64,000 nucleotides of DNA from Cubamyces lactineus (Eukaryota > Basidiomycota > Agaricomycetes > Polyporales > Polyporaceae): positions 186,001-250,000 of the forward strand of contig JACDTU010000014.1 of the NCBI GenBank assembly GCA_022376465.1. The letters run 5' to 3'. Positions 13,401 through 26,415 of the stretch are shown one piece after another. Position 1 is the first letter of the stretch. The number at the start of each line of letters is the position of its first letter. The notes under the pieces were generated by a model that searched no databases, was not told where the DNA came from, and worked only from the letters and a program-made list of their open reading frames with translations. Position numbers and translations under genes: made by a program.

Positions 13401-14333
13401 CGGCTTGCTAAACGGGACCGCCTCCTCTGCTGCCTGTGTGAGGATGTTAGTCATGTCTCGGACAATGGCATCAAGCTCATCTCTGGTGGTGGCCCCGCTA
13501 GCCCGCTTGTCCAGCTCGAGGGCATCCCAACCCTTTTCCACTAGACACGTGTAGACGATCCAGTCCGCATTGTGCCATTGACGGCGGGCCTCGCGTTCCA
13601 GAGTGGGTACCTCCAGGTGGAGGACCGTGTTGACCGCCCGGTGATCTGACCCGTGGCCATCCGCCGTTTCGCATACCGTTACGAGGTCTTCGATGGTGTC
13701 TGAGACGAAGACCAGGTCGATGGTTGACCAGGAGTGATGCGCGTCTGAAAAGCATGTTGGGGACTCAGGCGGTAGCGAGAGAGAGAGAGCGTTGTCTGCA
13801 AGTAGCCGTATGAGCGACTCGGAGTTTGACCTGCGGGTCCGCTTGGGGACGTTGGGTCCCGACCAGAGCGGGTGATGCATGTTGAAGTCGCCGACAAGCA
13901 GAATAGGGACGTGCGAGAGGGTGGGCTGTTGGAAGGCTGACGCTAGGAGGGCAATAGTGCTGTCAGTATTAGGAGGGTTATATACAGAGAAGACGGCAAG
14001 AGAAGTTGTTGGGAAGGTAAGCTTAACGGCAGTGAGGTCAAGTGTCTTGAGGTGTATCTGGGTGTACGAGTCGGATGGGAGCCGGTTGCTGACATAGATT
14101 GCGCTATGGACTAAGTCCTGTTCCGACCGATTCGCAGCCGTACTCGGGAGAATCAGGTTCCAGTGTGGGGACCTGAAAGAGAGCTGTGAGTCAATGCGGT
14201 ACGGAAGCTCCTGAAGGCAAATGATATCCCAGTCTTTAGGGTTAGTGAGGTTAAGCAGTGACTTGAGGACCTCCGGCTGTTTTCGACAATTGAGGTTCTT
14301 GACTCGTAGACCCTTCATTGTGGCTTCGTTCAT
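10479..14333 (-). CDS. LINE-B ORF2: endonuclease - reverse transcriptase - RNase H, 1284 aa
   Basis: Replication polyprotein of LINE-B, uninterrupted. In order: AP-type endonuclease (KNLNCRKQPE, CLQELPYR, VGDFNMHHPLW, TIDLVFVSD, GSDHRAV) in the first 240 residues; RT with AAGPSGVPNAA, LRKPGKPSYLVPKAYRPIAL, HFGGRAGRTTTDAV, LDITSAFPFV, GLPQGSPLSPIL and catalytic FIDDTAML near residue 690; RNase H from about residue 980 (VFTDGSGYKGGIGA ... WVPGHKGIKGNEWADAEAK); and a terminal zinc-binding stretch CPTCHTPETVDHFLRSC near residue 1212. All metal-binding acidic residues I can locate are present. Translation probably couples to ORF1, whose stop overlaps this start as ATGA (14333-14330). Likely still enzymatically competent; activity is inference. 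Confidence 0.93.
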   Translation of the reverse strand: MNEATMKGLRVKNLNCRKQPEVLKSLLNLTNPKDWDIICLQELPYRIDSQLSFRSPHWNLILPSTAANRSEQDLVHSAIYVSNRLPSDSYTQIHLKTLDLTAVKLTFPTTSLAVFSVYNPPNTDSTIALLASAFQQPTLSHVPILLVGDFNMHHPLWSGPNVPKRTRRSNSESLIRLLADNALSLSLPPESPTCFSDAHHSWSTIDLVFVSDTIEDLVTVCETADGHGSDHRAVNTVLHLEVPTLEREARRQWHNADWIVYTCLVEKGWDALELDKRASGATTRDELDAIVRDMTNILTQAAEEAVPFSKPSPYSKRWWTAELTEQQRALKHLQNRAAKRNATDVDRAAARIARNNYHAAIRRQQRAHWRQWVEEANEKTIWQACKYVTQAPEDTIAARLPALQLPNGSVARTCHEKRDALMAQFFPTPPPAKLEDITDATYPPQLDHSPISLEEVEAAIDNLSPFKAAGPSGVPNAALKECSYVVKHTLTTLANKCITLGHHPKQWKTFTTITLRKPGKPSYLVPKAYRPIALEDTSSKVIEAVMAQRLAALAEQHGLLPATHFGGRAGRTTTDAVLYITQRIKDAWRRGEVASVLYLDITSAFPFVNHTRLLHNLRKRRVPEDLVQWIADFLTDRCTQLKFDDYTSEPLRASTGLPQGSPLSPILYLFYSADLLELIDLRDTKRASGGFIDDTAMLVASKTIEENIRKLSSLGPKMSEWSEQHACCFDLGKFQLIHFTRNEKKYSPLPLTLNGYEIPAADSAKYLGVVMDRRLRWREHADMAIAKGTSALMAIGRLTRPRFGLPHSHVRQLFQAVVIPKMEYGLPVWYTPVRHPEGTLRAKGSVGLARRLGKVQRVAALMITGAFKSTSTIVLDYHAGLLPIDLRLNVAAFNATARLASLPESHPLHKVVKHCRRNYPRFHRSPIHELLQAFPELQHVETIDPGLWDPSKRAGFEVLEGEDKTRAAAIVDDIVSSGELCVFTDGSGYKGGIGASAVAMGPSGQRHVRWAHLGSDRLHLVFEGELAGMAMALDIIKSEPRITKANILLDSRPAIRAAKARRPCPGQQLAELFNTHYERLKRKRRSLRLRVIWVPGHKGIKGNEWADAEAKAAAEGDSTDLPESLTGLQDLPCSQSALKAHYRERAMAEWKQRWDASPQGKRLKRLTGDIPPGRQVLKVYQKLPRTHCSAITQLRSGHIGLNAFLHRIRAVSSPMCPTCHTPETVDHFLRSCRRFNVQRHEFRRAMGRFPFTVKNALGNVKCRGALLQFVDATGRLARDTSKTS

Positions 14334-14734
14334 GCAGCCATGCCCGCCCTACTCAGGCGAGCTGGTGCCAACTTGGGGTTGAAGCTAGGATTGTAGTACG
14401 CCGAACCGTTAGAGAACCGCTCGAACGACCTGGCCTGCGCGGCCGCCTTGACAGGACAACAGCCTGCTACCGACTTGTGGGGCCCGCCGCAGTTCGCGCA
14501 GTGGGCTTTGATGTGTGGACAATGTCGGACGTTGCTGCATTTTGTCTTCGCCGGGCACGCGCATTCCCGTGTCGAGTGGTTCCCCGCACAGCGGGCGCAC
14601 TTGAGGGACGCGGGTTCGGATAAATGGGGACACGCCTTGGCGACGTGGCCAAACTCTTGACAACGGAAACATTGGACAGGTGGGGGACTGAACTTCCGGA
14701 CCGGGCAGATCGCGCCGCAAATGGACAGAGACCT
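14330..14734 (-). pseudogene. LINE-B ORF1, 3' part with CCHC zinc knuckles (split by Gypsy element)
   Basis: C-terminal third of the LINE nucleic-acid-binding protein. Zinc-knuckle pattern: CFRCQEFGHVAKACP, then CARCAGNHSTRECAC and CPHIKAHCANCGGPHKSVAGC, three successive Cys/His groups. The stop TGA (14332-14330) overlaps the ORF2 ATG. The 5' part lies at 25299-26339 beyond the Gypsy insertion. Taking one copy of the GTAGA repeat, the two parts are in frame and total 482 codons including stop. The gene was therefore intact until the Gypsy element landed. Confidence 0.88.
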
Positions 14735-14739
14735 GTAGA
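14735..14739. repeat. Left 5-bp target-site duplication of the Gypsy element
   Basis: GTAGA directly before the 5' LTR; the same five bases follow the 3' LTR at 25299-25303. Five bases is the usual Ty3/Gypsy duplication length. Confidence 0.93.
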
Positions 14740-15018
14740 TGTAAGGATTCCGTGCAACTAGCACGGGATCCACACTGGAATGTGCCACGAGCACATTCCG
14801 ACATTCCGAAGGGGATGGCGCTAATCGCGCCATCCGCGTAGATTACAAACACTTGTACTAGATCTATGCGAGCGTACGGCGCCCTAGACGTTCGGGGTCT
14901 GGGCGCCTGGTGGGAAAGTCTTTCTTACCCACCATCCTCACGAGTACGCCGAGCCCAATACGAGCCCGGTCCAGAGTACTTGAGGATAGGGTGTGGAAGA
15001 CACCCGTGAGTTTTAACA
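14740..15018 (+). repeat. 5' LTR, 279 bp
   Basis: Starts TGTAAGGATTCC, ends GTTTTAACA. It contains perfect hairpins such as GGAATGTGC-cacga-GCACATTCC (14777-14799) and GGATGGCGC-taatc-GCGCCATCC (14813-14835). Confidence 0.95.
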
Positions 15019-15121
15019 CTTTTTTACTCTCCCGAGTAGCGAACAACAAGCCCGAATTGGGCCCGACGTCACACGTCATCAAGAATCCCCCATTCCACCA
15101 ACTCAACTTCTATCTCTAGAC

Positions 15122-18100
15122 ATGGCGTCTAGAGATTCTCCCACAGGAGAGGGGCAACCATCACGGTTGTCCCCGAAGACAACTCGTCCTCCTCTCGCAC
15201 CTCTTGCCACGTCGGCATCAGGTCCGAGCAGGTCCACCCCCTCGCAATTAGCGGGGGGTTCTTCACCTTTCGAATTGCTGCAAGCTGGCAGCGCGACGAC
15301 CTCCAAGAAACCTTCACCTCTCGCTAGCAGAGCAGCTAGCAAGAGCCGGCCAAGCAGCAGATCATCAAACCGTTCAAACGCGAACAGTGACCGAGGTAAG
15401 CGAAGGGCTACCTCGCCCCGAGCATACAGAACTCCACCCGAGACAGAAGAGCCCGCCGAGCAATTAGTTCGCGCGGGTAACAAGCAATCACCTAGGTCGG
15501 ATCACGAAGGACGATTGCAACAAGCAATCGAGTCGGGACAAGTGTCTAGACGTCAGTCAGAGCAAGGCAGCCAAGCGCTGCAGAAAGCCGCGATAGCCGG
15601 CTTACTTCGAGATGCGCGAGCACGATATAGCCAGCTCGCACAACAAGTGCAGCAGGCTGAAGAGCAATTCACAGCTCAAATAGAAGCTGTAATGGCTGCT
15701 ACTGGGTTGTCCTTGGACTGGGAAGACGAGCGAGAAAACGACAAGTCGTCATTTCATGAGGATGACGCCATGTCCTCCAGAGACGAACAGCAGGTGGACG
15801 ATCTAGTCCAACCTGAAGAAAACGACCAGTCAGGCCCCGAAGAAGAAGGACCTCAACGATTCGTGAGTGGAGTGCAAGAAGCTCTCCACCGTCTTGATGC
15901 AGGACGAATGCATCGTCTGCGAAGTGCCGGATTGGCGGAAGAGGAGCACTTCATTAGTACTCCTCAAACAAGCCCGTCGTATCATTCGGCCAGTGCCCAA
16001 TTTGGACGCACCGAGGAGCAACGAGCCCCTCGGCGTAGTGTCGCGTTCGATGGGCTTGGTCCAAGTTCGATGCCGTCCGTTGAGGATTCGCTGGTTGCGG
16101 ATCCCCAGCCTTCAGCATCGAGAGGTCCGGCATATAGGCAGACGGCGTGGACTTTGCCATTATCGGGACCGAGTGCCTGGGGTCCTCGTAGGACCTCGAT
16201 GGCACCTACTATCACAGCGCCTATCTCGGGTTCACGCGAACCACGAGAAGACTTAGCCTACGTTGGCCCCATAGCCAACGTACGCGATGGTATAGGAGTT
16301 CAAAGGCTCCTTACCATGATAGATGAACAAGTGGGAAGTGATCCCACCGACGAGCCGCCTGCGTATTTGAAGCTGGCTAAATTGCCAGCTCCACCGCAAT
16401 ACGAAGGCAAGGACGACGCCGACAAGTTCGAGGTCTGGCTTCAAAGCCTACTCGAATATTTCAGTACCCTGCGCCTAACTGGCAAAGGGTTCGATAAGGA
16501 TCGTCTGCGACTAGCAGGCAATAGCCTAGGTGGCAACGCAGCCACCTGGTTCTACAACACCATCAAGTCCCCGACGCGCGAGAAGACGCACTGGACGTTC
16601 GAAGAAGCCATAGTAGGCTTATATCGACGGTTCATTCACCGCGATATGCATTTGGTAGCAGAGCAGCAATTCGCTGCTCTGAAATACGACTCCACTAAGG
16701 GTGGAGTCGCAGCTCTTTACGAACAGATGCGCTTCCACGCCGACAAGATGTGGGAGAAGCCTACCGACTTCCAGATGCGCAAGAAACTGCTCGAAACATT
16801 ACCCTACCAATTCGAGCAAACCCTCACTATATACAAAGGGCTATCTGCCCAGTATAACACATTCTGGGAGATTTACCAGGCCGCGCTCGAATATGAGCAA
16901 AGCCTCCGAATTCTGCAAAGCCGCCGAAACTCGCGTGAAACATCGGGTACACAGGCTAGTACCTCTAGTTCAGGCAAAGCATCACGAGACGCTAAGTCTG
17001 GACGATCGCATGGAACATCACATCGTCAGCAACAACGAACCACTGCAAATAGCAGTGGCAAACCGGGATGGTCCTATCATAGACCATCCGACAATCGAAA
17101 TTACCGTGCACCTCAAGCGAGTGCTTCAGGTACACGGCCCACTTCATCCACTAATGTACCCCGCAATGAGCGCGGTACGGGTCCGGTGAAGTGCTTCGCA
17201 TGTGGCCAAATAGGCCATTACGCAAGTGATCCAACCTGTCCGAAGTATGGGAAGCAAAATACTTCCCATAACGCGAGGATGTTCGCGCAGCAAGTAGTGC
17301 CCGAACCTCCAGCGGACGAAGAAGAGCCGGTTCCACTAGAACCTGCTGAAGTCCCTTCTAAGGAGGAAGCGGAAGAGGAACATCCCTTTTCCGAAACAAT
17401 CCCTGAACCCGAAGCGGATTACCCCGAATCCGAATTCGGAGGTAATGGATCTCAATACGAATCGGATCGAGAAGACTTACCCTCGCCGATATTCGAAGAA
17501 GAGATCGAATTCAATGGCATGCGCGTAGCAGCAATAAAAGAGATCGAAACTGATCTCTTGCGAGCCCATGCGATGGCCGTTCAACCAGAACGGAACATCC
17601 GGCATGGGTGGCTATACGATGCTAAGGTCCGAAGGTTGACAAGGCCTGAAGACCAACCGAAGCGTAATGAGTACGCACAGCGCACACTATGTGCTGAGAT
17701 ACCCATCAATGGTATCAAAGCTCTGGCGTTATTCGATTCGGGTTGCACAACCGACTCGATGACACACGAGATGGCGTATCTGTGCAGAGCAGATCGCATC
17801 GACCTGAACGAACCCGTTGGGCTCCAACTAGGAACCAAGGGAAGTAGAACGCGCATCAATTTCGGTGCGCGTGCTACGGTACAGGTCGGCCCAGTCAAGG
17901 CTGACCACTACTTCGATGTAGTAGACATCGACAAATACGATGTCATCTTGGGTACCATGTTCTGTCGAGAGCACAAAGTAGTGCTCAACTTTGGCAACGA
18001 CACGGTAACGGTAAAGGGACAATCGATTAGATTGTTCGACCCGGCCGAGTACGAAACGCGAAGACGACGTCAGGAAAATGACGTCGCAAAAGGAATTGCA

Positions 18101-18196
18101 CAAAGCAATATCCCGCCACCTAAGGCTAATCGGCCTATGGTGGACAAGGGAAAGAATACAACCCAGTATTCTACGCCCACAGCATCCGCAAAGTAG
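15122..18196 (+). CDS. Gypsy gag-protease ORF, 1024 aa
   Basis: Capsid precursor plus aspartic protease of the element. The first 400 residues are Ser/Pro/Gln-rich and probably disordered; a capsid-like helical region follows (residues about 420-610, with WLQSLLEYFSTLRL, WFYNTIKSP and ALYRRFIHRDM-type segments). A zinc knuckle CFACGQIGHYASDPTCP lies near residue 690 (CX2CX4HX6C spacing) and a retroviral-type protease with LFDSGCTTDSM near residue 870 and VILGTMFC downstream. The ATG at 15122 is the first in the frame after the LTR. The ORF ends with UAG at 18194-18196 and the pol frame continues directly after it in the same phase. Protease therefore belongs to this ORF rather than to pol. 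Confidence 0.93.
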   Translation: MASRDSPTGEGQPSRLSPKTTRPPLAPLATSASGPSRSTPSQLAGGSSPFELLQAGSATTSKKPSPLASRAASKSRPSSRSSNRSNANSDRGKRRATSPRAYRTPPETEEPAEQLVRAGNKQSPRSDHEGRLQQAIESGQVSRRQSEQGSQALQKAAIAGLLRDARARYSQLAQQVQQAEEQFTAQIEAVMAATGLSLDWEDERENDKSSFHEDDAMSSRDEQQVDDLVQPEENDQSGPEEEGPQRFVSGVQEALHRLDAGRMHRLRSAGLAEEEHFISTPQTSPSYHSASAQFGRTEEQRAPRRSVAFDGLGPSSMPSVEDSLVADPQPSASRGPAYRQTAWTLPLSGPSAWGPRRTSMAPTITAPISGSREPREDLAYVGPIANVRDGIGVQRLLTMIDEQVGSDPTDEPPAYLKLAKLPAPPQYEGKDDADKFEVWLQSLLEYFSTLRLTGKGFDKDRLRLAGNSLGGNAATWFYNTIKSPTREKTHWTFEEAIVGLYRRFIHRDMHLVAEQQFAALKYDSTKGGVAALYEQMRFHADKMWEKPTDFQMRKKLLETLPYQFEQTLTIYKGLSAQYNTFWEIYQAALEYEQSLRILQSRRNSRETSGTQASTSSSGKASRDAKSGRSHGTSHRQQQRTTANSSGKPGWSYHRPSDNRNYRAPQASASGTRPTSSTNVPRNERGTGPVKCFACGQIGHYASDPTCPKYGKQNTSHNARMFAQQVVPEPPADEEEPVPLEPAEVPSKEEAEEEHPFSETIPEPEADYPESEFGGNGSQYESDREDLPSPIFEEEIEFNGMRVAAIKEIETDLLRAHAMAVQPERNIRHGWLYDAKVRRLTRPEDQPKRNEYAQRTLCAEIPINGIKALALFDSGCTTDSMTHEMAYLCRADRIDLNEPVGLQLGTKGSRTRINFGARATVQVGPVKADHYFDVVDIDKYDVILGTMFCREHKVVLNFGNDTVTVKGQSIRLFDPAEYETRRRRQENDVAKGIAQSNIPPPKANRPMVDKGKNTTQYSTPTASAK

Positions 18197-21100
18197 AGGA
18201 GCGTGGTGCATTCCACGAAAGTGGAACCCTCCCGAACGCACCGCGCGACAAGCGACTTAATGTCGTCAGGAGGGGGAGGGGACGGCAACTCAGCCGTTAA
18301 GATTCCTGTACGACATCAAGGTCGGGCCAAAACAGACTCAGCCCCAAATATCAATGAAAGATTTGTGCCAACTAGGCACTCATCTACGGAACCCAGAAGA
18401 GACCGATGGGGTCAAGAAGATCCCTACGGAATGAACGAGATGCTTGATCGGATTGCAAAAGAGCAATGGGAAGATGAGATAATACGACGAAGCCACGTTG
18501 GCTTCGTCATAGACGAAAAAGAGGAGGAGCTAATCAAGCTCCGCGAAAAGTGGTATGCGAAGACGGAGGACATCATGCGTCCTCCGCCAGATGAATTACC
18601 TCCTTATAGGGAGATAAATCATCGCATTCCACTCATCGACGAACAGAAGAAGTACCGCTATCACCTACCTCGGTGTGCGGAAGTAGTCAAGCCCGCACTG
18701 ATCGAGAAGATCAGGCGGTACGTTAAGGCAGGATGGTGGCGACATGCCACTGTGGAGCAAGCAGCTCCCCTGCTATGCGTAGCCAAGAAAGACGGCAAAT
18801 TACGGACAGTTGTTGACGCACGTCAGCGTAACAACAATACGGTCCACGACCTCACGCCATTTCCGGACCAGGATCTGATCCGGATGGATGTCGCTCGAGC
18901 TAAGTATCGCTCGAAGATCGACTTATCCGATGCGTATGAACAAATACGCATAATAGCTGAGGACGTGTGGAAGACAGCGTTTGCCACTCCTTGTGGCACG
19001 TTTGTGAGCGAGGTCATGCAACAGGGTGACACGAACGCTCCATCAACGTTCCAACGCCTGATGACTTCCTTGTTCTGGGATTGCATTGGACGATTTGTCC
19101 ATGTATATCTCGACGATATCTTTGTGTATTCGGACTCCATCGAGGAACACGAAAAGCACCTGGAGATCGTCTTCGAGAAGCTACGCAAAGCGCAGCTGTA
19201 TTTAAGCCGCAAAAAATGCGACTTATTCTCGAAGGACATGGACTGTCTCGGTCATCGAATAGATGATCGGGGACTTCACGCCGATATGGACAAGATGAGC
19301 AGAATCCGCAATTGGAGGACTCCTCGTTCGTACCAGGAAGTGCAACGCTTCCTGGGTCTAGTCAACTACCTCGCACACTTCATGCCTGATGTAACGGCGT
19401 ACACCACGCCATTATCGGGTATGATTAGGAACGACAGACCTTTCGTCTGGCGCGCATTGCACGACAAGTGCTTTGAGTCGATCAAAGCCTTGGCTTGCAA
19501 AGTTCCCATTCTCAAGCCGATCGACCCCAACAGGAATGAGCCTATTTGGCTCATTTGCGACGCTTCCGTATATGGGCTCGGTGCCCTATACGGCCAAGGA
19601 CCTAACTGGCAAACCTGTCGTCCTGCTGGACTTCTATCTAAGAAGTTCACGAGTGCGCAACGAGCGTACCCCACTTATGAGCAGGAAGCTCTAGCAATTC
19701 TCGAAGGATTGATGAAGTGGGAGGACAAACTACTAGGACGACATGTCCACGTAGTAACAGACCACAAGGCCTTGGAATTCTTGCAAGGGATACCTCGGCC
19801 CAACAGCCGACAAATCTGGTGGTACGAGTTTTTAGCTCGTTTCCAGTACGACATCACGTACATCCCGGGCAAGTTGAACAAAGTAGCTGACTGCTTGTCA
19901 CGCTACTATGAGAACGACAACTTCGATGAACCCGTCAACGAGTGGGACTACGTCAACGCAGACGTACGTCTTGATCCGAATGGGGATTTTCTTCCCTTTT
20001 CGCGAATGATCGAGTTGAAGGCTAGTCGTATTTTGCGACGATCTGCAAGGCTAGCGGAGAAGCAAGAAGCTTCTCTTGCTGCAAAAGCCAAACTTCCAGA
20101 AGTTGTCGAAGATCGCGTTCAGGAAGCCCAACAGCTTTCTGTAGCCCGTCCACAAACAGTGAACGAGGCTCCGAAGAAGGACGAAGATCCTACAGTAGGA
20201 GAACTCCTATCATCAGGACCTCCACTCAAGATTCGAGTGGAATCACAAGATGGATTCCATAACGCTATCCGAAAGGGATACGTTATGGACACGATGTTCA
20301 AGAAAATCGTCGAGGATCCGTCTCAGCACAAGGCCTTCACCATGCGTGAAGGTCTTCTCTACACTCAGAACCATAGCGGTAGCGAGGTACTATGTGTACC
20401 TCGCGTACTACTCAAGGCTAGGATGCTGCCCGAGCTAGTTATCGACCGTGCTCACGGCACGCTTGGTCATCTCGGGCCTCAACGCACGTCTGACTACGTT
20501 AGGCGATGGTTCTGGTGGCCTAGCCTACGCAAGGACGTAGATAAATTCTGCACATCTTGCGGCACTTGTCAGACCATTAAGGCGAGCAATCAGCTCCCTA
20601 TGGGTCTCTTACATAGTTTACCAATTCCACGAATGCCGTGGAATTCGATTTCGATGGATTTTGTGGGTCCTTTCCCGCCGTCGCACGGACACGATTATGT
20701 GTGGGTGATCGTCTGTCGATTAACTTCACTGGTACACTTAGTACCTATCAATACTACTACTACCGCGGCCGAGTTGGCCATGGTCTATCTACGAGAAGTA
20801 GTGCGACTGCATGGACTGCCCGAGACTATTGTGTCTGACAGGGACAGCAAGTTCACGTCCAAATTTTGGCGCGAACTGCACCGGTTGATGGGGGCTAAAT
20901 TGCTCATGTCGACCGCTTTTCACCCACAGACAGATGGACTTAGCGAGCGAACTATTCGTTCGGTCACGCAAATTCTGAGAGCCATGGTAGCTCCGGACCA
21001 GAAAGACTGGTACGAGAAGCTACCCCTAGCCGAATTCGCCTTGAATTCAGCTACAAACGCATCTACTGGGTTTGCTCCATTCGAGTTGACCTACGGCTAC

Positions 21101-21736
21101 TTGCCGAAGTCAATGAGTGGTATCTCCACAGATACGCACTATCCCGGAGTGAAGGAGTACGCGCAACGAGCGCGTACTTATCTCGAGCAAGCACACGATG
21201 CATTGATCGATGCGCGAGTGTCGCAAACGTTCCACGCGAACAAACGAAGACGGCACGAGCCCGACTTCGAGGTGGGGGACAAGGTATACTTGTCCACCAA
21301 GAATTTAGCAATGCCGAAAGGACGAGCAAGAAAGCTCGTTCCCAAGTATATAGGCCCCTACACGATAATAGGAGCCTTCCCGGAGTCGTCCAACTACTTG
21401 TTGGACTTACCCGCTGAATTGAAGGAACGTCGGATACATCCGAAATTCCATGTGTCGCTACTAAGGCGACACGAGCCGAACGATGATGACTTGTTTCCTG
21501 GTCGAGAAGCACAGGCCTACTATGATGTAGGTCTAGACGACGAGCAAGAGTGGCTCGTCGACGAGATTATTGGACACGAGTGGGACGGCAAACGATGCCG
21601 TTTCCACGTACGATGGACGCTTGGTGACCATACATGGGAGCCATACGAGCATTGCAAAGAGCTCGTTGCTCTTGACAATTACTGTAACTTGATGGGGGTG
21701 AAGTCATGGCGGCAATTGCCTAGGCACAAGAGCTAG
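18197..21736 (+). CDS. Gypsy pol ORF: RT - RNase H - integrase - chromodomain
   Basis: Frame open from immediately after the gag UAG to TAG at 21736, about 1179 codons. RT: LLCVAKKDGKLRTVVDARQR, KIDLSDAYEQI, catalytic VYLDDIFVYS (about residue 300 of pol), FLGLVNYLAHF. RNase H: ICDASVYGLGA, YEQEALAI, VVTDHKALEFL. Integrase: HHCC zinc finger (HGTLGH ... CTSCGTC), MDFVGPF, VSDRDSKFTSKFW, HPQTDGLSERTI, giving the D,D-35-E triad. C-terminal chromodomain: EWLVDEIIGHEW ... FHVRWTLGDHTWEPYEH, which in chromoviruses directs insertion to marked chromatin. There is no ATG at the start; the first ATG codons come about 20 codons into the frame. Expression is therefore either by UAG readthrough or by reinitiation. 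Confidence 0.93.
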   Translation, partial: RSVVHSTKVEPSRTHRATSDLMSSGGGGDGNSAVKIPVRHQGRAKTDSAPNINERFVPTRHSSTEPRRDRWGQEDPYGMNEMLDRIAKEQWEDEIIRRSHVGFVIDEKEEELIKLREKWYAKTEDIMRPPPDELPPYREINHRIPLIDEQKKYRYHLPRCAEVVKPALIEKIRRYVKAGWWRHATVEQAAPLLCVAKKDGKLRTVVDARQRNNNTVHDLTPFPDQDLIRMDVARAKYRSKIDLSDAYEQIRIIAEDVWKTAFATPCGTFVSEVMQQGDTNAPSTFQRLMTSLFWDCIGRFVHVYLDDIFVYSDSIEEHEKHLEIVFEKLRKAQLYLSRKKCDLFSKDMDCLGHRIDDRGLHADMDKMSRIRNWRTPRSYQEVQRFLGLVNYLAHFMPDVTAYTTPLSGMIRNDRPFVWRALHDKCFESIKALACKVPILKPIDPNRNEPIWLICDASVYGLGALYGQGPNWQTCRPAGLLSKKFTSAQRAYPTYEQEALAILEGLMKWEDKLLGRHVHVVTDHKALEFLQGIPRPNSRQIWWYEFLARFQYDITYIPGKLNKVADCLSRYYENDNFDEPVNEWDYVNADVRLDPNGDFLPFSRMIELKASRILRRSARLAEKQEASLAAKAKLPEVVEDRVQEAQQLSVARPQTVNEAPKKDEDPTVGELLSSGPPLKIRVESQDGFHNAIRKGYVMDTMFKKIVEDPSQHKAFTMREGLLYTQNHSGSEVLCVPRVLLKARMLPELVIDRAHGTLGHLGPQRTSDYVRRWFWWPSLRKDVDKFCTSCGTCQTIKASNQLPMGLLHSLPIPRMPWNSISMDFVGPFPPSHGHDYVWVIVCRLTSLVHLVPINTTTTAAELAMVYLREVVRLHGLPETIVSDRDSKFTSKFWRELHRLMGAKLLMSTAFHPQTDGLSERTIRSVTQILRAMVAPDQKDWYEKLPLAEFALNSATNASTGFAPFELTYGYLPKSMSGISTDTHYPGVKEYAQRARTYLEQAHDALIDARVSQTFHANKRRRHEPDFEVGDKVYLSTKNLAMPKGRARKLVPKYIGPYTIIGAFPESSNYLLDLPAELKERRIHPKFHVSLLRRHEPNDDDLFPGREAQAYYDVGLDDEQEWLVDEIIGHEWDGKRCRFHVRWTLGDHTWEPYEHCKELVALDNYCNLMGVKSWRQLPRHKS

Positions 21737-21984
21737 TTGCTCTTGTGCCCTACCACTACTAGTCGTAGTGGGAGGCAAAGCCGAAGAAGCCAAGTCTTCG
21801 AAATGGTGATGTCCACCATTTCAATAAGCGCCGGATACGATCACGAGACGAGAGGACGCGACGCGTTACGCGTTAGCGCCGAATCTGGAGATTCAAACTC
21901 CACCAGCGCCAAACAGCGAGGACACGCGTTTTCGCTAAGTCTCCGTCTCTCGTGCCAGCCCTTCGCCAGCACTACACCACCACC

Positions 21985-24483
21985 ATGTCCAGCAACCAGC
22001 AACACCGTTCACCTCGCGGGCGACGACACTCGTCGCCGCCACTACCACCACCACTACCGTATGGGACTCCAGGGGGCGAAGACGTCATGGAACAAGACCC
22101 GGGGCATTCGCTAGTTGCGGATGCCCCCCAGCTGCCGCCCAGCTACTTTGCTGGGCCACAGCCTTTGCCGATGTCGGAACGACCGACACGATACGATCAG
22201 CCACCTCCCCCAGGATACAACTCGTATCCTGGACAAGGAGTCCACCCTCAACGTCAAGCTGCGCTGCCACACGCAGCGTACTTTGGTCAAGGGTCGTCCA
22301 CTCAGACGGCCCACTTCCCTCAACTACCAACCGTGCCTGCGGGATCAAGTATGCCCCTGGGTATGCCTCCGCTAATGCCAATCCCGGGCATTCCCAACCT
22401 CATGTGGGAGGAGATCCCCGACTACCCTTTGCTAGTCGCGCACCGGGAAGGCTGTGCTTGTTGCATGGACTTCCTGCGGCACTATGCCGCCGCGACGAAC
22501 GAAATGTCGTTCAGAGACGCACTCACGCGAGTCCAAACAGACTTGCAGAGGCGTTTCTGGGCGCATTTTGAGCAACACGCTCGGTCCTCAGGGGGAGGGG
22601 AGCGGGAACGAGAGCTCGAACGAGAACACGAGCGCGACGTCGGAAGGATCTGCGAGCTGCAACGAGCAGTTCGTGAATATGAAGAATTAGAACGAGCGAA
22701 CGCCAGGCTGCGTGAAGAGCGGGATTGGCTCCAAGACGAGCTACGCGACGTCCGTTCAGACAATGAACAGCTTCGCGGTGAGCGCAATCGCATCCGCGAG
22801 ACATTACAAAATTTATACCGCGAGCGCAATCAGCCTCGCGGCCCATATCAGACTCCAAGTTCCAATCCCGACCATCGTCATCGAGACCCACGCGAGGTCA
22901 GTCCACGACGACCAGCTCAGTCTCGAACCACCACAACGAGTGGTGTGCCTACGAGTCAAGCCACGACTGAGGCGGGGCCGTCGAGAAGAAGGTCGCCACC
23001 TCCGCAACGAGCGGAGGCGCAGCATACAGGACGAACAGCCTCGGCTGCTGGGTCTCACCGATCCAGTCAGCCGGAGGCCGCGATATCCCAGTCCAAAGGC
23101 AAGCAGCCTGTGGGCCGTGACGACTTCGACAATTTGTCGGAATTGTCGTCAGACAGCGACGGCAATCCTGTTGACCGCGACAAGATCCAGAAGGCCATCA
23201 TACGATCTCGTATGAGACGGGCGCGCACTGGTCGACCACCACCTGAGGTGGGACCAATGCCGTCCGAAGACCGACCAGCGATCCCTGGTTGGCCTTACGA
23301 CCTTATGGCGCCCCCAGTCGACACGGATCCGCGGTTAGCCAGCAATTGGACGTCATACGTTCCAATAACCGCGTTGGAGGGCAATACGCTCATGCAGGCG
23401 GCCCGTGAGGGAAGTGGAGAGGCTCGTCATCGGTTGACGGATCTCCTACGCCAACTCACGGAGCGTCCAGAGATGAACGGAGTAGAAGGTCTGCATGTTT
23501 GCCAGATGAGCTGGCGCAATCACAACAAGGATCGCGTCGCTGCCACCTCTACTGCCGTCAGCACCCGCGATCAGCGAGGCAACACGCCTCCTGATCTGGA
23601 GCATGCCTCCATCGACCATCTACCGCGCCCATTGGGACGTGGACACCACCCCGGCAAGACGTCAAAGTCGAAAGGCAAGCCGAAAGGGCCGAGCATGCCT
23701 AACCACTCGGACGCCCCCGAGATTTGGAGGCAATGGTATGTTGCCAATCCGGCACATACTCCTCGGTGGATGCTGGTGGATCGGGCAAATAGCCCGTCCG
23801 ACACCAGCGTGGAATACCACCTCCTTGTTCGGCGCACACTTGGCCAAGGGGTGAGCATCCAGGACCGAGCAGTATGGATTCGCTTATTGCACGTCCTATT
23901 CTCGGTACCTGGCATGTATAACTATATAGTCGCTAATGGCGGCTATCCTGTGCGCAATCACGTCGAGACCGTGCGTTACCCCGGCCCCGTAGCCGAGGTC
24001 AACATCTTCCGCCTTGCTTGGTGGTATGCCTACTGTGGCATTACCGTCCAGCAAGCCAACGCACTACAGCCCTTAGCTGTACGTGCACGCAACGAGCGCA
24101 TTGGACGAATGTTGGACGAGCCCGCGCCGTTCAACGACGACGAGTACAACTCCATGGATGAGTTACCACTCATTCCTACGTCGCAGGACCTTGGCATGGA
24201 GCACCTCATCACGGGTGCTCCTCCTGTTCCCGTCATCGCTCCTACCACGGCTAACGCCGAACCCGTTGCGGTACGAGCTCCTGACGCTCCCGGCATGCCC
24301 GCCGCGCCTGTGCCTCACAACACTAGTGACGGCAACGTACCTGCGCCCACGGTCACCATCGACAACCCGGTGGTCGACGAAGACCATGAGATGGCCGACC
24401 AAAGTGCGGTCGTACCACAGGAGGACGAAGGCATCCAATCGACGCCGCACCCGTCGCCGCTCAATACCCCGCCATCGGCGTAG
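21985..24483 (+). CDS. Gypsy ORF3, 832-aa protein of unknown function
   Basis: Additional ORF between pol and the 3' LTR, on the element's sense strand, starting at an ATG in good context (CCACCATGTCC), 248 bases after pol. I recognise no known domain. Visible features: Pro-rich N-terminus; GCACCMDF near residue 155; a strongly charged coiled coil (about 202-282, many ERE and LREER heptads); Arg/Ser/Pro-rich linker; IPGWPYDLM near 432; a Lys/Gly-rich basic patch (KTSKSKGKPKG) near 555-568; a hydrophobic, globular-looking segment near 618-690 (IRLLHVLFSVPGMYNYIV ... FRLAWWYAYCGI); and an acidic tail. No signal peptide or membrane helix, so it is not a classical envelope. Its integrity in a recently inserted copy suggests it is maintained; role unknown. 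Confidence 0.85.
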   Translation: MSSNQQHRSPRGRRHSSPPLPPPLPYGTPGGEDVMEQDPGHSLVADAPQLPPSYFAGPQPLPMSERPTRYDQPPPPGYNSYPGQGVHPQRQAALPHAAYFGQGSSTQTAHFPQLPTVPAGSSMPLGMPPLMPIPGIPNLMWEEIPDYPLLVAHREGCACCMDFLRHYAAATNEMSFRDALTRVQTDLQRRFWAHFEQHARSSGGGERERELEREHERDVGRICELQRAVREYEELERANARLREERDWLQDELRDVRSDNEQLRGERNRIRETLQNLYRERNQPRGPYQTPSSNPDHRHRDPREVSPRRPAQSRTTTTSGVPTSQATTEAGPSRRRSPPPQRAEAQHTGRTASAAGSHRSSQPEAAISQSKGKQPVGRDDFDNLSELSSDSDGNPVDRDKIQKAIIRSRMRRARTGRPPPEVGPMPSEDRPAIPGWPYDLMAPPVDTDPRLASNWTSYVPITALEGNTLMQAAREGSGEARHRLTDLLRQLTERPEMNGVEGLHVCQMSWRNHNKDRVAATSTAVSTRDQRGNTPPDLEHASIDHLPRPLGRGHHPGKTSKSKGKPKGPSMPNHSDAPEIWRQWYVANPAHTPRWMLVDRANSPSDTSVEYHLLVRRTLGQGVSIQDRAVWIRLLHVLFSVPGMYNYIVANGGYPVRNHVETVRYPGPVAEVNIFRLAWWYAYCGITVQQANALQPLAVRARNERIGRMLDEPAPFNDDEYNSMDELPLIPTSQDLGMEHLITGAPPVPVIAPTTANAEPVAVRAPDAPGMPAAPVPHNTSDGNVPAPTVTIDNPVVDEDHEMADQSAVVPQEDEGIQSTPHPSPLNTPPSA

Positions 24484-25006
24484 ACGTACTCGAGCACCGT
24501 GCGCTACTTCATACTTGTATCATATTGCATCCCCGCGCGCGAGCTCCCCACTCGCGCGCGTCGAGAACTACGGGGAAAGCTCGTCGCTTCGATTCGCGAC
24601 GAGCACAAGGGCACTCAGTGATCGTCACACTGAGTGTCATCGCCTCATGACGATATAGCTGCTTCGATTCGCAGCCTTTCAATTATACACCCTCCGAGTT
24701 GCAACTAGCAACTCTATGGGATAGTAAGACTCACCATCCTACTATTCCTTCTCTACTACAAGGTGAAAAGGGACGCTTCGTTTCGCGTCCCCAATGGATA
24801 CTATTCCACGCTCACTTGGCGTGTAAACTCAAGTGACAAGCAGCTTCGATTCGCTGCATATTGTATATAATCGCGCTATCGCGCGTTTGACTCATATTAC
24901 CACCGTTCCTGGCCTCGCCTAGCCATGAACGCAGTCAACAGGCGTATTGCCGCTTTGATTCGCGGCTGTAAATATTCACTTTATATTCGAGACCCGTACA
25001 CGAGTC
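24484..25006 (+). other. Gypsy 3' noncoding region packed with hairpins
   Basis: About 520 bases without ORF, in which one perfect stem-loop follows another. Several share a loop TTCGATTC or a one-base variant: GCTCGTCGC-ttcgattc-GCGACGAGC (24579-24604), GCTGC-ttcgattc-GCAGC (about 24660), GGGACGC-ttcgtttc-GCGTCCC (24770-24791), GCAGC-ttcgattc-GCTGC (about 24841) and GCCGC-tttgattc-GCGGC (about 24950). Others, such as CACTCAGTG-atcgtca-CACTGAGTG and GAGTTGC-aacta-GCAACTC, have different loops. Confidence 0.85.
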
Positions 25007-25008
25007 TG

Positions 25009-25019
25009 AAGGGGGAGAG
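25009..25019 (+). promoter_or_regulatory. Polypurine tract of the Gypsy element
   Basis: AAGGGGGAGAG immediately before the TG of the 3' LTR, the expected plus-strand primer position. Confidence 0.85.
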
Positions 25020-25298
25020 TGTAAGGATTCCGTGCAACTAGCACGGGATCCACACTGGAATGTGCCACGAGCACATTCCGACATTCCGAAGGGGATGGCG
25101 CTAATCGCGCCATCCGCGTAGATTACAAACACTTGTACTAGATCTATGCGAGCGTACGGCGCCCTAGACGTTCGGGGTCTGGGTGCCTGGTGGGAAAGTC
25201 TTTCTTACCCACCATCCTCACGAGTACGCCGAGCCCAATACGAGCCCGGTCCAGAGTACTTGAGGATAGGGTGTGGAAGACACCCGTGAGTTTTAACA
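25020..25298 (+). repeat. 3' LTR, 279 bp
   Basis: Identical to the 5' LTR except T at 25184 for C at 14904. Followed by the target repeat GTAGA. Confidence 0.95.
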
Positions 25299-26339
25299 GT
25301 AGATGAGCGCATCGGCGACCGACGCGTCGGATAGGGTGATGACGAGCGTTGCGTCGGTCTTCGTTGTGGTGTGCATGTGGTGCTCATGTAGCCATCGCGC
25401 GCTCAGGATAGCGTCAGGGGAAGGGATCGTCCCTTGATTGGACAGGAAGATAGCTTCCCGCGCCGACGGCGCACGCGGGTCGAACGTTGTAGGTACAGCA
25501 GCGGCCGAGACTACATATGATTTGCGCTCGATGGCGGCATTGGACGCGAAGTGGTGGACCCAGAGGTCCGCATGGCGTAACAAGAGCTGCGCCTGCAGCT
25601 CTGAGTCGGCCTGCACCATAACGCTACCATTGGAACGCCTGCGGACACCATGGACGGAGGTGCCCGCAAGGCCTTCCACACCGGAGGCCGTGAGTGCCGC
25701 CTCGACGCGAGCTTTAAGCTCTGCCGCCGAGAGGGCGCGAGTGGTCCTCGCGGTGTTCGCGTCCGGGAGGGAGATGACGACTTCCAACTCCTTTGCCCGC
25801 GGGGGAGTGACGTGATGGGGGGCGGTGGGGAGAGTAGCCGTTGCCGGCGGGTGAGAGGCAGAGCGTGTGGGCAAAGGACTCGCCTTGAACGCAGCTTCAA
25901 TCGAGGCCTTGACTGCGATGGTAGCCTGTTCCGTGAAAGACTTCACCGCGCTTTGCGTCAAAGACTTCATTGTGGCCTCCAGCTCAGCGCGCGACGCGCG
26001 GTCGAGCACGGGTGGCGGAGGCGAAGTCGCGCCACTTGGTTCGGTCGGCGGGTTTGCCACTCCCCTGGTGGCCTCGTCGATTAGCGCAGTAGCTCGCGCT
26101 GCTGCCAGAAGTTTGTCGAGTCGTTCTTTACGACAGCGAGCCAGGCCCGGGATAAAAGTCAGTTCCAACAGAATCTGGTCGAGTAGCCCCAGTAGCGTGT
26201 CGGCAGGGGTGAGTGGCCCCTTATCGTCCACTCCTGTCGACCGGTTCCAGTCTAGCACCAGTGACGCAGCCTGAGAGCCAGATGGGGGTGGTGAGGTAGG
26301 AGCAGGTTTGCGAGAAGGTCGCGCAACACTGGGGGCCAT
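25299..26339 (-). pseudogene. LINE-B ORF1, 5' part (split by Gypsy element)
   Basis: N-terminal two thirds of the LINE ORF1 protein, starting MAPSVARPSRK at 26339. Ala/Pro/Ser-rich, with a helical stretch (ALIDEATRGV, LEATMKSLTQSAVKSF) and a compact domain near residues 200-330 (VVISLPDANTART, LKARVEAALTASGVEG, RRRSNGSVMVQADSE) that resembles an RNA-binding fold seen in LINE ORF1 proteins; this comparison is tentative. The frame runs into the Gypsy LTR at 25298 and continues in phase at 14734. Confidence 0.85.
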
Positions 26340-26403
26340 AGCGGCGGGAAGTACGTGAGCCACTCGGCCAGGTGATGGAGGTCGGAGATCAAGATGTGTC
26401 CAC

Positions 26404-26415
26404 ACATGGCGACCA
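26404..26415. repeat. Right target-site duplication of LINE-B
   Basis: ACATGGCGACCA, the partner of 9795-9806. Confidence 0.92.

Follow-up and report, generated by a model that had tools for sequence, protein, structure and literature searches.

Pervasive hairpins and probable selection on RNA structure in a Ty3/Gypsy retrotransposon of Cubamyces lactineus

The Ty3/Gypsy element at positions 14740 to 25298 of the window (hereafter A) carries perfect hairpins at a density that is far beyond chance, and natural selection very probably acts on the structure of its sense RNA. The window is a 64,000-nt stretch of the Cubamyces lactineus genome (assembly GCA_022376465.1, contig JACDTU010000014.1, positions 186,001–250,000, forward strand), and all positions given here refer to it. 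Folding of this degree is otherwise reported from certain RNA viruses and now seems to be present in a fungal retrotransposon.

Layout of the element and census of its hairpins

A is a Ty3/Gypsy LTR retrotransposon. It has direct 279-bp LTRs that differ by one base, a 5-bp target-site duplication (GTAGA) and the domain order Gag, protease, reverse transcriptase, RNase H, integrase, which fits this group. The reverse transcriptase, RNase H and integrase zinc-binding domains score above the Pfam cut-offs and the integrase core slightly below. ORF2 lies in the frame of ORF1 and is open immediately past the ORF1 stop codon. Judged by reading the bases alone, the sequence 3' of the 5' LTR does not begin with the TGG typical of a tRNA 3' end. 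ORF3 gives no Pfam match above cut-off, and of 7992 candidates scored against it four are homologues at E ≤ 1e-5; its structure model is weak (mean pLDDT 53.6) and yields no fold match at E ≤ 0.001. Two scans of viral contigs for relatives returned 1 and 13 pattern matches, none of them confirmed. The parts of the element are as follows.

14735–14739, no strand: target-site duplication GTAGA, left copy
14740–25298, + strand: Ty3/Gypsy LTR retrotransposon (A), dense in hairpins over its full length
14740–15018, + strand: 5' LTR, 279 bp, with several hairpins inside that appear to covary
15122–18196, + strand: ORF1, gag (Ty3 capsid and zinc-knuckle matches) and aspartyl protease, all under Pfam cut-offs
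18197–21736, + strand: ORF2, pol (reverse transcriptase, RNase H, integrase)
21952–24483, + strand: ORF3, putative start; coiled coil, and helices in the C-terminal part by a low-confidence model
25020–25298, + strand: 3' LTR, 279 bp
25299–25303, no strand: target-site duplication GTAGA, right copy

Perfect hairpins with stems of at least 6 bp and loops of 3–10 nt occur at 9.66 per kb in A, compared with 1.49 per kb in the left flank and 1.71 per kb in the right. For stems of at least 9 bp the density is 1.80 per kb in A and 0 and 0.05 per kb in the flanks, and in 2-kb bins the excess is limited to A. When stems of at least 5 bp are counted, 159 non-overlapping hairpins (loops 3–10 nt) cover 28% of the element with a median spacing of 49 nt, in agreement with an earlier note on this DNA that had described one hairpin every 40–60 bases. 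All six example hairpins in that note are present letter for letter: the two listed below and those at 16687–16709, 17246–17270, 20623–20645 and 21156–21178.

We compared the number of stems of at least 7 bp (loops 3–10 nt) with 200 codon-preserving and 200 dinucleotide-preserving shuffles. ORF1 contains 17 such stems (codon-shuffle mean 1.80, maximum 6; dinucleotide-shuffle maximum 4), ORF2 contains 18 (mean 1.59, maximum 7; dinucleotide-shuffle maximum 5) and ORF3 contains 8 (mean 1.50, maximum 6; dinucleotide-shuffle maximum 6). The LTR plus 5'UTR has 2, where dinucleotide shuffles give a mean of 0.15 and a maximum of 2, and the 3' noncoding region has 5 (mean 0.24, maximum 3). The adjoining LINE and the adjoining RasGEF host gene are at chance, with 2 stems each against codon-shuffle means of 2.23 and 1.53. 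The hairpins claimed earlier for the LTRs, gag, pol, ORF3 and 3' noncoding region are thus above the shuffle mean in each region, and their reported scarcity in the LINE and host exons holds. The density in ORF1–ORF3 lies outside the range of the codon shuffles, which the earlier note had named as its own refuting test, and the same result upholds its proposal that a constraint shapes which codons are used in gag, pol and ORF3. Chance or base composition as the source of the hairpins can be practically dismissed, given that both kinds of shuffle are exceeded in A whereas identical tests on the LINE and the host gene give nothing.

Some hairpins stand out by position or by loop.

14813–14835, + strand: LTR hairpin, 9 bp, 5-nt loop; both arms altered in relative C2
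15112–15136, + strand: hairpin of 10 bp whose 5-nt loop contains the gag start codon
16259–16282, + strand: example hairpin, 9 bp, 6-nt loop
20382–20404, + strand: example hairpin, 9 bp, 5-nt loop
21723–21749, + strand: hairpin of 11 bp whose 5-nt loop contains the pol stop codon
24579–24966, + strand: five 3' noncoding hairpins with a similar 8-nt loop and differing stems, read from the printed sequence

The last five start at 24579, 24658, 24770, 24840 and 24949, and their loops are TTCGATTC in three cases, TTCGTTTC and TTTGATTC. Among the 53 hairpins of A with stems of at least 7 bp and loops of 3–10 nt, 23 have a 5-nt loop and none has a 4-nt loop; of the loop range of 4–8 nt proposed earlier, 5 nt is the main class and 4 nt is not one. 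Codon structure does not account for this preference (30 hairpins with 5-nt loops in A against 3.1 in shuffles, and 22 against 4.0 in family B, described below). The 5-nt loops of A mostly have a C-G closing pair (28 of 39) and an A at the second position (27 of 39). The latter is found in only 6 of 23 loops of B, so the loop letters of A are not common to both families. In the LTR, the loop AACTA is identical in all six LTRs compared, solo LTRs included, and the arms around it vary.

Folding energy in A, in its relatives and in known systems

The sense RNA of A folds more stably than shuffled controls, with a mean MFED of 28.3% over 69 windows, 96% of which exceed 10%; codon shuffles show the excess as well. 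Family B, which has a 58% identical Pol core, reaches 16.4% (72 windows), and three loci at 39–41% identity have a folding excess of about 2.5%; these three Gypsy-related loci may not be ordinary elements. Antisense folding is also raised, to 22.5% in A and 11.9% in B. Sense exceeds antisense in 10 of the 13 sequences compared, the exceptions being C7 (13.6 versus 16.5%), L045 (2.7 versus 3.8%) and L046 (10.7 versus 10.8%). Our first comparison of the strands was set aside as partly an effect of composition, which makes up about half of the sense-over-antisense excess of A, and a composition control was used instead. With this control the sense minus antisense difference is −1.36 ± 0.62 in A and −1.91 ± 0.76 in B; when 4-bp hairpins are also kept, it is −0.88 ± 0.61 and −1.86 ± 0.76.

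Hairpin positions turn over between families A and B while density is kept: only 8 of 79 mapped A hairpins lie within 3 nt of a B hairpin, with about 5 expected by chance. A does have many hairpin places in common with the broken copies closer to it.

The highest folding excess given for vertebrate RNA viruses in the available part of one paper is 23.4% (PMC7642675). The value for A is above this maximum, in a comparison that shares the 350-nt window but is not identical in shuffling method, steps and regions (PMC7642675). A also resembles viruses with genome-scale ordered RNA structure (GORS), as characterized in the available part of PMC3950689. In both, folding energy exceeds that of order-shuffled controls along the whole genome, many short-range stem-loops follow one another at positions poorly conserved between relatives, and paired sites vary less than unpaired ones (PMC3950689); all three properties are found in A. 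Unlike GORS genomes, A has perfect stems and a peak of 5-nt loops, and it is an integrated fungal LTR retrotransposon rather than a positive-strand RNA virus genome. A works like GORS but falls outside that set as described. The genomic RNAs of the yeast elements Ty3 (Ty3/Gypsy) and Ty1 (LTR) contain well-folded regions making up as much as 30% of the RNA (PMC11381356). These were defined by probing and have cis-acting roles, and the word 'shuffled' is absent from the available text, which offers no shuffle-based excess to set beside that of A (PMC11381356). Elements of Trametes sanguinea and T. pubescens have Pol 79% and 74% identical to that of A, a comparison made by protein only. Among the listed matches from open-licence PMC articles, preprints excluded, there was no retrotransposon paper combining whole-length RNA structure with a shuffle test.

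Sequence change in stems and loops

Changes were counted in five relatives, all of them broken copies in one genome. Counts for the relative named C1 combine two loci on contig C1, L041/L042 and L053; the near-identical copies C17 and C21, as well as B and C8, did not enter the counts, and solo LTRs were used only in the comparison of LTR hairpins. At third codon positions, tip-branch changes affect 77 of 522 stem sites, 48 of 193 loop sites and 535 of 1923 sites elsewhere. The reverse test gives 67 of 283, 25 of 103 and 300 of 842; it is significant for stems of at least 5 bp, and for stems of at least 6 bp p is 0.13 and loops are as slow as stems. Stem third positions thus change at 0.53 to 0.67 times the rate elsewhere. 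These counts replace a first one, summed over the five relatives (stems 140 of 563, loops 88 of 226, rest 1705 of 4377), which suffers from survivorship bias, since a stem was included only if it is still perfect in A. Transversions are also depleted in stems of at least 6 bp (ratio 0.48), and among three near-identical copies 3 of 34 differences fall in stems, which make up 19% of the element.

The type of change tolerated in stems appears to depend on the strand. Tip-branch changes after which the sense RNA has a G-U pair are as frequent as expected (52 versus 51.7), whereas those that leave A-C are depleted (19 versus 49.3); for this asymmetry p is 2e-4, where p values here assume that every site in every relative is independent. 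For stems of at least 6 bp the direction is equal in all five relatives. Counting every change instead of only those unique to a tip gives no significant difference (p 0.12, stems of at least 6 bp). Hairpins with one mismatch show no strand preference inside A alone (15 G-U, 16 A-C); B has 14 and 12. Of 69 double changes, 41 preserve pairing (49% expected). Pairing doubles exceed expectation (41 versus 19.4), but non-pairing doubles do too (28 versus about 20), so the pairing excess lies largely in doubles as such and covariation is only suggestive.

Upkeep and possible benefit of the hairpins

These results are best explained by selection, rather than a copying bias, keeping up the hairpins. 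The earlier note had offered biased mutation or repair as a cause; as a maintaining force this finds no support, because it predicts neither slower stem third positions nor strand-specific tolerance of G-U. One specific form, template switching during reverse transcription (imperfect-palindrome correction), would rewrite one arm to complement its partner and leave the hairpin as a scar without function. Perfect Watson-Crick arms, short loops and the symmetric one-mismatch hairpins of A are what it would produce. Yet stem positions are slow, tip branches tolerate G-U and lose A-C, wholesale replacement of arms was not clearly seen by eye among the hairpins compared, and other Gypsy elements with a similar copying enzyme have little folding, all of which makes this origin very improbable. 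Selection on DNA hairpins, in single-stranded cDNA or as cruciforms, is slightly less credible still: the raised antisense folding is expected of Watson-Crick hairpins on either strand, but the G-U/A-C asymmetry runs in the sense-RNA direction and sense folding exceeds antisense in A and B even with the composition control.

On this explanation the sense RNA is a chain of short stem-loops from LTR to LTR, with perfect stems mostly of 5–10 bp and a peak of loop length at 5 nt. Purifying selection very probably maintains its base pairing, in the genes largely through codon choice. The benefit would be global rather than site by site. Shielding from RNA silencing is the most likely benefit, at somewhat under even odds in our judgment: a self-folded RNA may be hard to target and unlikely to set silencing off, since guide RNAs would find few accessible stretches, antisense transcripts would pair little with it and its helices would be too short for Dicer. 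The host genome has matches to Argonaute, RdRP and Dicer. A similar proposal exists for the structured genomes of persistent RNA viruses. In the available part of PMC3950689, vertebrate cells are reported to recognise structured viral transcripts less, and the evidence on siRNA escape is called 'not entirely consistent' by its authors. Pervasive sense-RNA structure under purifying selection together with shielding is a joint explanation that we consider about evenly poised between right and wrong. The preference for 5-nt loops is left unexplained by shielding.

That preference is where the main competing account begins. The hairpins could be many weak sites for Gag nucleocapsid or the ORF3 protein, with bound sites condensing the RNA and marking it for the virus-like particle; the recognised unit would be a hairpin with a 5-nt loop, and selection would still be on sense RNA. 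It would fit the dominance of 5-nt loops in A and B past codon structure, the shared closing pair and second-position A, the constant AACTA loop between variable LTR arms and the similar loops on differing stems in the 3' noncoding region. Against it, gene loops change almost as fast as the rest at third positions, the loop letters of A are not shared by B, and the more weakly structured families L047–L050 lack the 5-nt peak. Some 160 sites also exceeds what packaging is known to require. We regard this packaging or compaction role as possible but doubtful. General folding might instead tune translation, RNA stability or reverse transcription, through nuclease protection or enzyme pausing, with neither silencing nor packaging involved. 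It too predicts selection on sense RNA and turnover of positions; nothing in the data is specific to it, and the three Gypsy-related loci, perhaps not ordinary elements, manage in the same genome without such folding, and we consider it unlikely.

Returning to shielding, a broader and rather speculative scenario is that an arms race with RNA silencing drove whole-length folding in LTR retrotransposons of wood-rot fungi above the cited vertebrate-virus maximum. The repeated unit, a 5-nt loop on a perfect stem shorter than a full helical turn, would block guide RNAs, be shorter than Dicer needs and perhaps also bind Gag, and the families of one genome would stand at different stages (about 28, 16, 11, 5 and 2.5%). 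Pervasive selected RNA folding has been discussed for RNA viruses and linked to persistence. Stronger folding in a permanent genome resident, beside Gypsy families with less or none, provides a natural comparison within one cell, and the purpose of whole-genome RNA folding becomes directly testable in a fungus with silencing genes. Synonymous change would also misdate such elements, because their third codon positions do not evolve neutrally.

Element A, its relatives and its hairpin density

Element A is a Ty3/Gypsy LTR retrotransposon with a GTAGA target duplication and 279-bp LTRs that, by reading, differ from one another at one base. ORF1 encodes gag and protease and ORF2 (pol) encodes reverse transcriptase, RNase H and integrase; the nearest named relatives of its Pol are from Trametes, and the host is accordingly taken as a polypore-like fungus. 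The features referred to here are:

14740..25298, plus strand: element A
14330-26405: reading frame into which A is inserted, upstream of the main ORF of a minus-strand LINE
15019-15040: bases 3' of the 5' LTR of A
18194-18203: ORF1-ORF2 junction, holding one stop codon
21952-24483: ORF3
25158-25187: large hairpin in the 3' LTR

Joining both flanks of A reconstructs an empty site with an uninterrupted 507-codon frame. In the host genome (36.3 Mb, 43 contigs), C17 and C21 carry copies with 99.7-99.9% identity to A over aligned pieces, and broken relatives on C12, C1, C7, C16 and C40 have a DNA identity of about 70-84%. A second Gypsy family, B (contig C15, L037/L038), has a Pol core 58% identical to that of A, 190-bp LTRs identical to each other, and three open frames.

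The earlier note had described A as saturated with short perfect inverted repeats. All six hairpins that it quoted are found exactly where it placed them, and the saturation is borne out, with the excess confined to the element. For loops of 3-10 nt, stems of at least 6 bp occur at 9.66/kb in A and at 1.49 and 1.71/kb in the flanks, and stems of at least 9 bp at 1.80/kb versus 0 and 0.05/kb. The shuffle test that the note had named as a refutation, run on the ORFs, does not refute the excess: stems of at least 7 bp number 17, 18 and 8 in ORF1, ORF2 and ORF3, above the maxima of 200 codon shuffles (6, 7 and 6) and 200 dinucleotide shuffles (4, 5 and 6). At the same threshold, the neighbouring LINE (2 versus a codon-shuffle mean of 2.23) and RasGEF gene (2 versus a shuffle mean of 1.53) show no hairpin excess and lie within the shuffle range. 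Non-overlapping hairpins in A with stems of at least 5 bp number 159, cover 28% of the element and have a median spacing of 49 nt.

Size and distribution of the folding excess

Folding excess, the percentage by which RNA folds more stably than shuffled controls, was calculated in 350-nt windows against dinucleotide shuffles for sense RNA, with antisense in parallel. The sense excess is 28.3% for A (69 windows, 96% of them above 10%) and 16.4% for B (72 windows, 81% above 10%), and the antisense excess is 22.5% and 11.9%, respectively. Against codon shuffles, A gives 27.9, 27.9 and 20.9% for ORF1, ORF2 and ORF3 and B gives 22.1, 19.3 and 8.5%, and there is no excess in the LINE (-0.4%) or RasGEF (-1.4%). 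Broken relatives reach 22.1% (C12), 11.7% (C1), 13.6% (C7) and 10.7% (C8). Among other Gypsy-related loci of this genome, read in their correct orientation, the excess is 11.3% for L047 and L049, which form a third Gypsy family at about 11%, 4.8% for L048, 5.5% for L050 and 2.5-2.7% for L043-L045. Passages of a coronavirus paper (PMC7642675) place HCV at 7.5-10.7%, SARS-CoV-2 at about 15%, unstructured viruses at 1.1% and the highest vertebrate RNA virus at 23.4%, values obtained with a window size identical to ours but with shuffles, steps and regions that are not identical.

Selected folding along the whole length of an RNA is already known from RNA viruses; no case in a retrotransposon was found in the literature among the matches listed. 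Passages of a Ty3/Ty1 probing paper (PMC11381356) describe structured regions rather than an excess over shuffles.

In an unrooted tree built on the reverse transcriptase region, the trait-free L008-L010 (the places of L043-L045) cluster with A and B, and the weakly and moderately structured families lie apart from this group. The folding trait therefore does not track one simple clade. Within 10-kb stretches of L043, L044 and L045 the open frames are very long, reaching 2916, 1354 and 2670 codons, and an LTR pair is absent; these loci are possibly fused gag-pol or host-adopted genes.

Evidence for selection on folding and for its strand

Many hairpins lie at shared places in A and its broken relatives, where changes, judged by eye, are mostly scattered single bases. 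Between A and B, just 8 of the 79 mapped hairpins (2/31, 6/31 and 0/17) lie within 3 nt of each other, about 5 being expected by chance; single hairpins therefore turn over while their density persists. This turnover at a maintained density indicates that it is probably the folding itself that is selected. To avoid counting only stems surviving in A, we used changes unique to one sequence. For stems of at least 5 bp defined in A, relative-unique changes at third codon positions number 77/522 in stems (0.148), 48/193 in loops (0.249) and 535/1923 elsewhere (0.278). The reverse test, with stems defined in the relatives and A-unique changes, gives 67/283 (0.237), 25/103 (0.243) and 300/842 (0.356), and is not significant for stems of at least 6 bp (p 0.13). 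Double changes in stems number 69 versus 39.3 expected. Covariation is only suggestive, because doubles losing pairing (28 versus about 20) are in excess as well as those keeping it (41 versus 19.4). The LTR copies provide clear single cases of change on both arms. The three near-identical copies differ at 34 places, of which 3 (manual count) are in stems; stems make up 19% of the element.

In one arm, C to T or A to G produces G-U in the sense RNA, and G to A or T to C produces A-C. Among changes unique to one relative, with expectations derived from non-stem rates, stems of at least 6 bp carry 52 G-U-making changes (51.7 expected) and 19 A-C-making changes (49.3 expected; p 2e-4), distributed as 9 and 2 in C12, 11 and 3 in C7, 18 and 8 in C1, 4 and 1 in C16, and 10 and 5 in C40. 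The counts are 71 and 43 for stems of at least 5 bp (p 0.019) and 28 and 9 for at least 7 bp (p 0.003). Because G-U is tolerated and A-C depleted, these unique changes point to the sense RNA as the target of selection. Counting against this, one-mismatch hairpins have no G-U preference (15 G-U and 16 A-C in A, 14 and 12 in B), and the difference is not significant when all changes are used instead of unique ones. Sense folding also exceeds antisense folding. In a control where perfect hairpins were kept and the remainder shuffled, composition accounts for about half of this difference in A, leaving -1.36±0.62 in A and -1.91±0.76 in B, or -0.88±0.61 and -1.86±0.76 when 4-bp hairpins are also kept.

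Loop architecture and possible function

Shielding from RNA silencing is our first choice for the benefit of folding, held tentatively, because the host genome has silencing-gene matches (Argonaute at 5 places, RdRP at 7 and Dicer at 3, exon matches grouped by hand), the stems are short for Dicer, and a resident element would face silencing every generation. For loops of 3-8 nt, stems are scarce beyond 10 bp: those of 9, 10 and 11 bp number 13, 3 and 1 in A and 9, 8 and 1 in B, which has one more of 12 bp. Dicer requires longer helices than these. Passages of one paper (PMC3950689) report that structured viral transcripts are less recognised in vertebrate cells and term the evidence for siRNA escape not entirely consistent.

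Shielding leaves unexplained the 5-nt loops that dominate both families (ORFs, stems of at least 6 bp: 30 versus 3.1 in codon shuffles for A, 22 versus 4.0 for B), for which recognition by Gag or the ORF3 protein is the better idea; shielding and recognition may act together. Loops of 4 nt are less raised (6 versus 3.4 in A, 11 versus 3.2 in B). L047-L050 have no 5-nt peak, and loop lengths in L047 and L049 peak instead at 9 nt, with 8 and 10 hairpins, respectively. In A, 28 of 39 loops are closed by C-G and 27 of 39 have A at the second place; the corresponding counts in B are 12 and 6 of 23. The LTR hairpin keeps the loop AACTA in 6/6 sequences on variable arms, and five hairpins of the 3' noncoding region have similar 8-nt loops on stems that differ. 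Both the start codon of gag and the stop codon of pol are located in hairpin loops, a post hoc observation not counted as evidence. By reading, the one-base LTR difference gives the large LTR hairpin a G-U pair in the 3' LTR in place of a Watson-Crick pair.

Relatives of ORF3 occur in Trametes versicolor, in Lentinus tigrinus and in two more sources. ORF3 contains a C-x2-C motif and a long coiled coil; its C-terminal part is predicted to be helical in a low-confidence model. ORF1 and ORF2 of A are in frame with each other and separated by just one stop codon, as are all three ORFs of B, pol and ORF3 of L048 and L049, and ORF1 and pol of L050, an arrangement that suggests stop-codon readthrough or reinitiation. 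The bases 3' of the 5' LTR of A (CTTTTTTACTC...) are, by reading, unlike a usual tRNA primer-binding site, and nearly identical bases directly follow the LTR of B.
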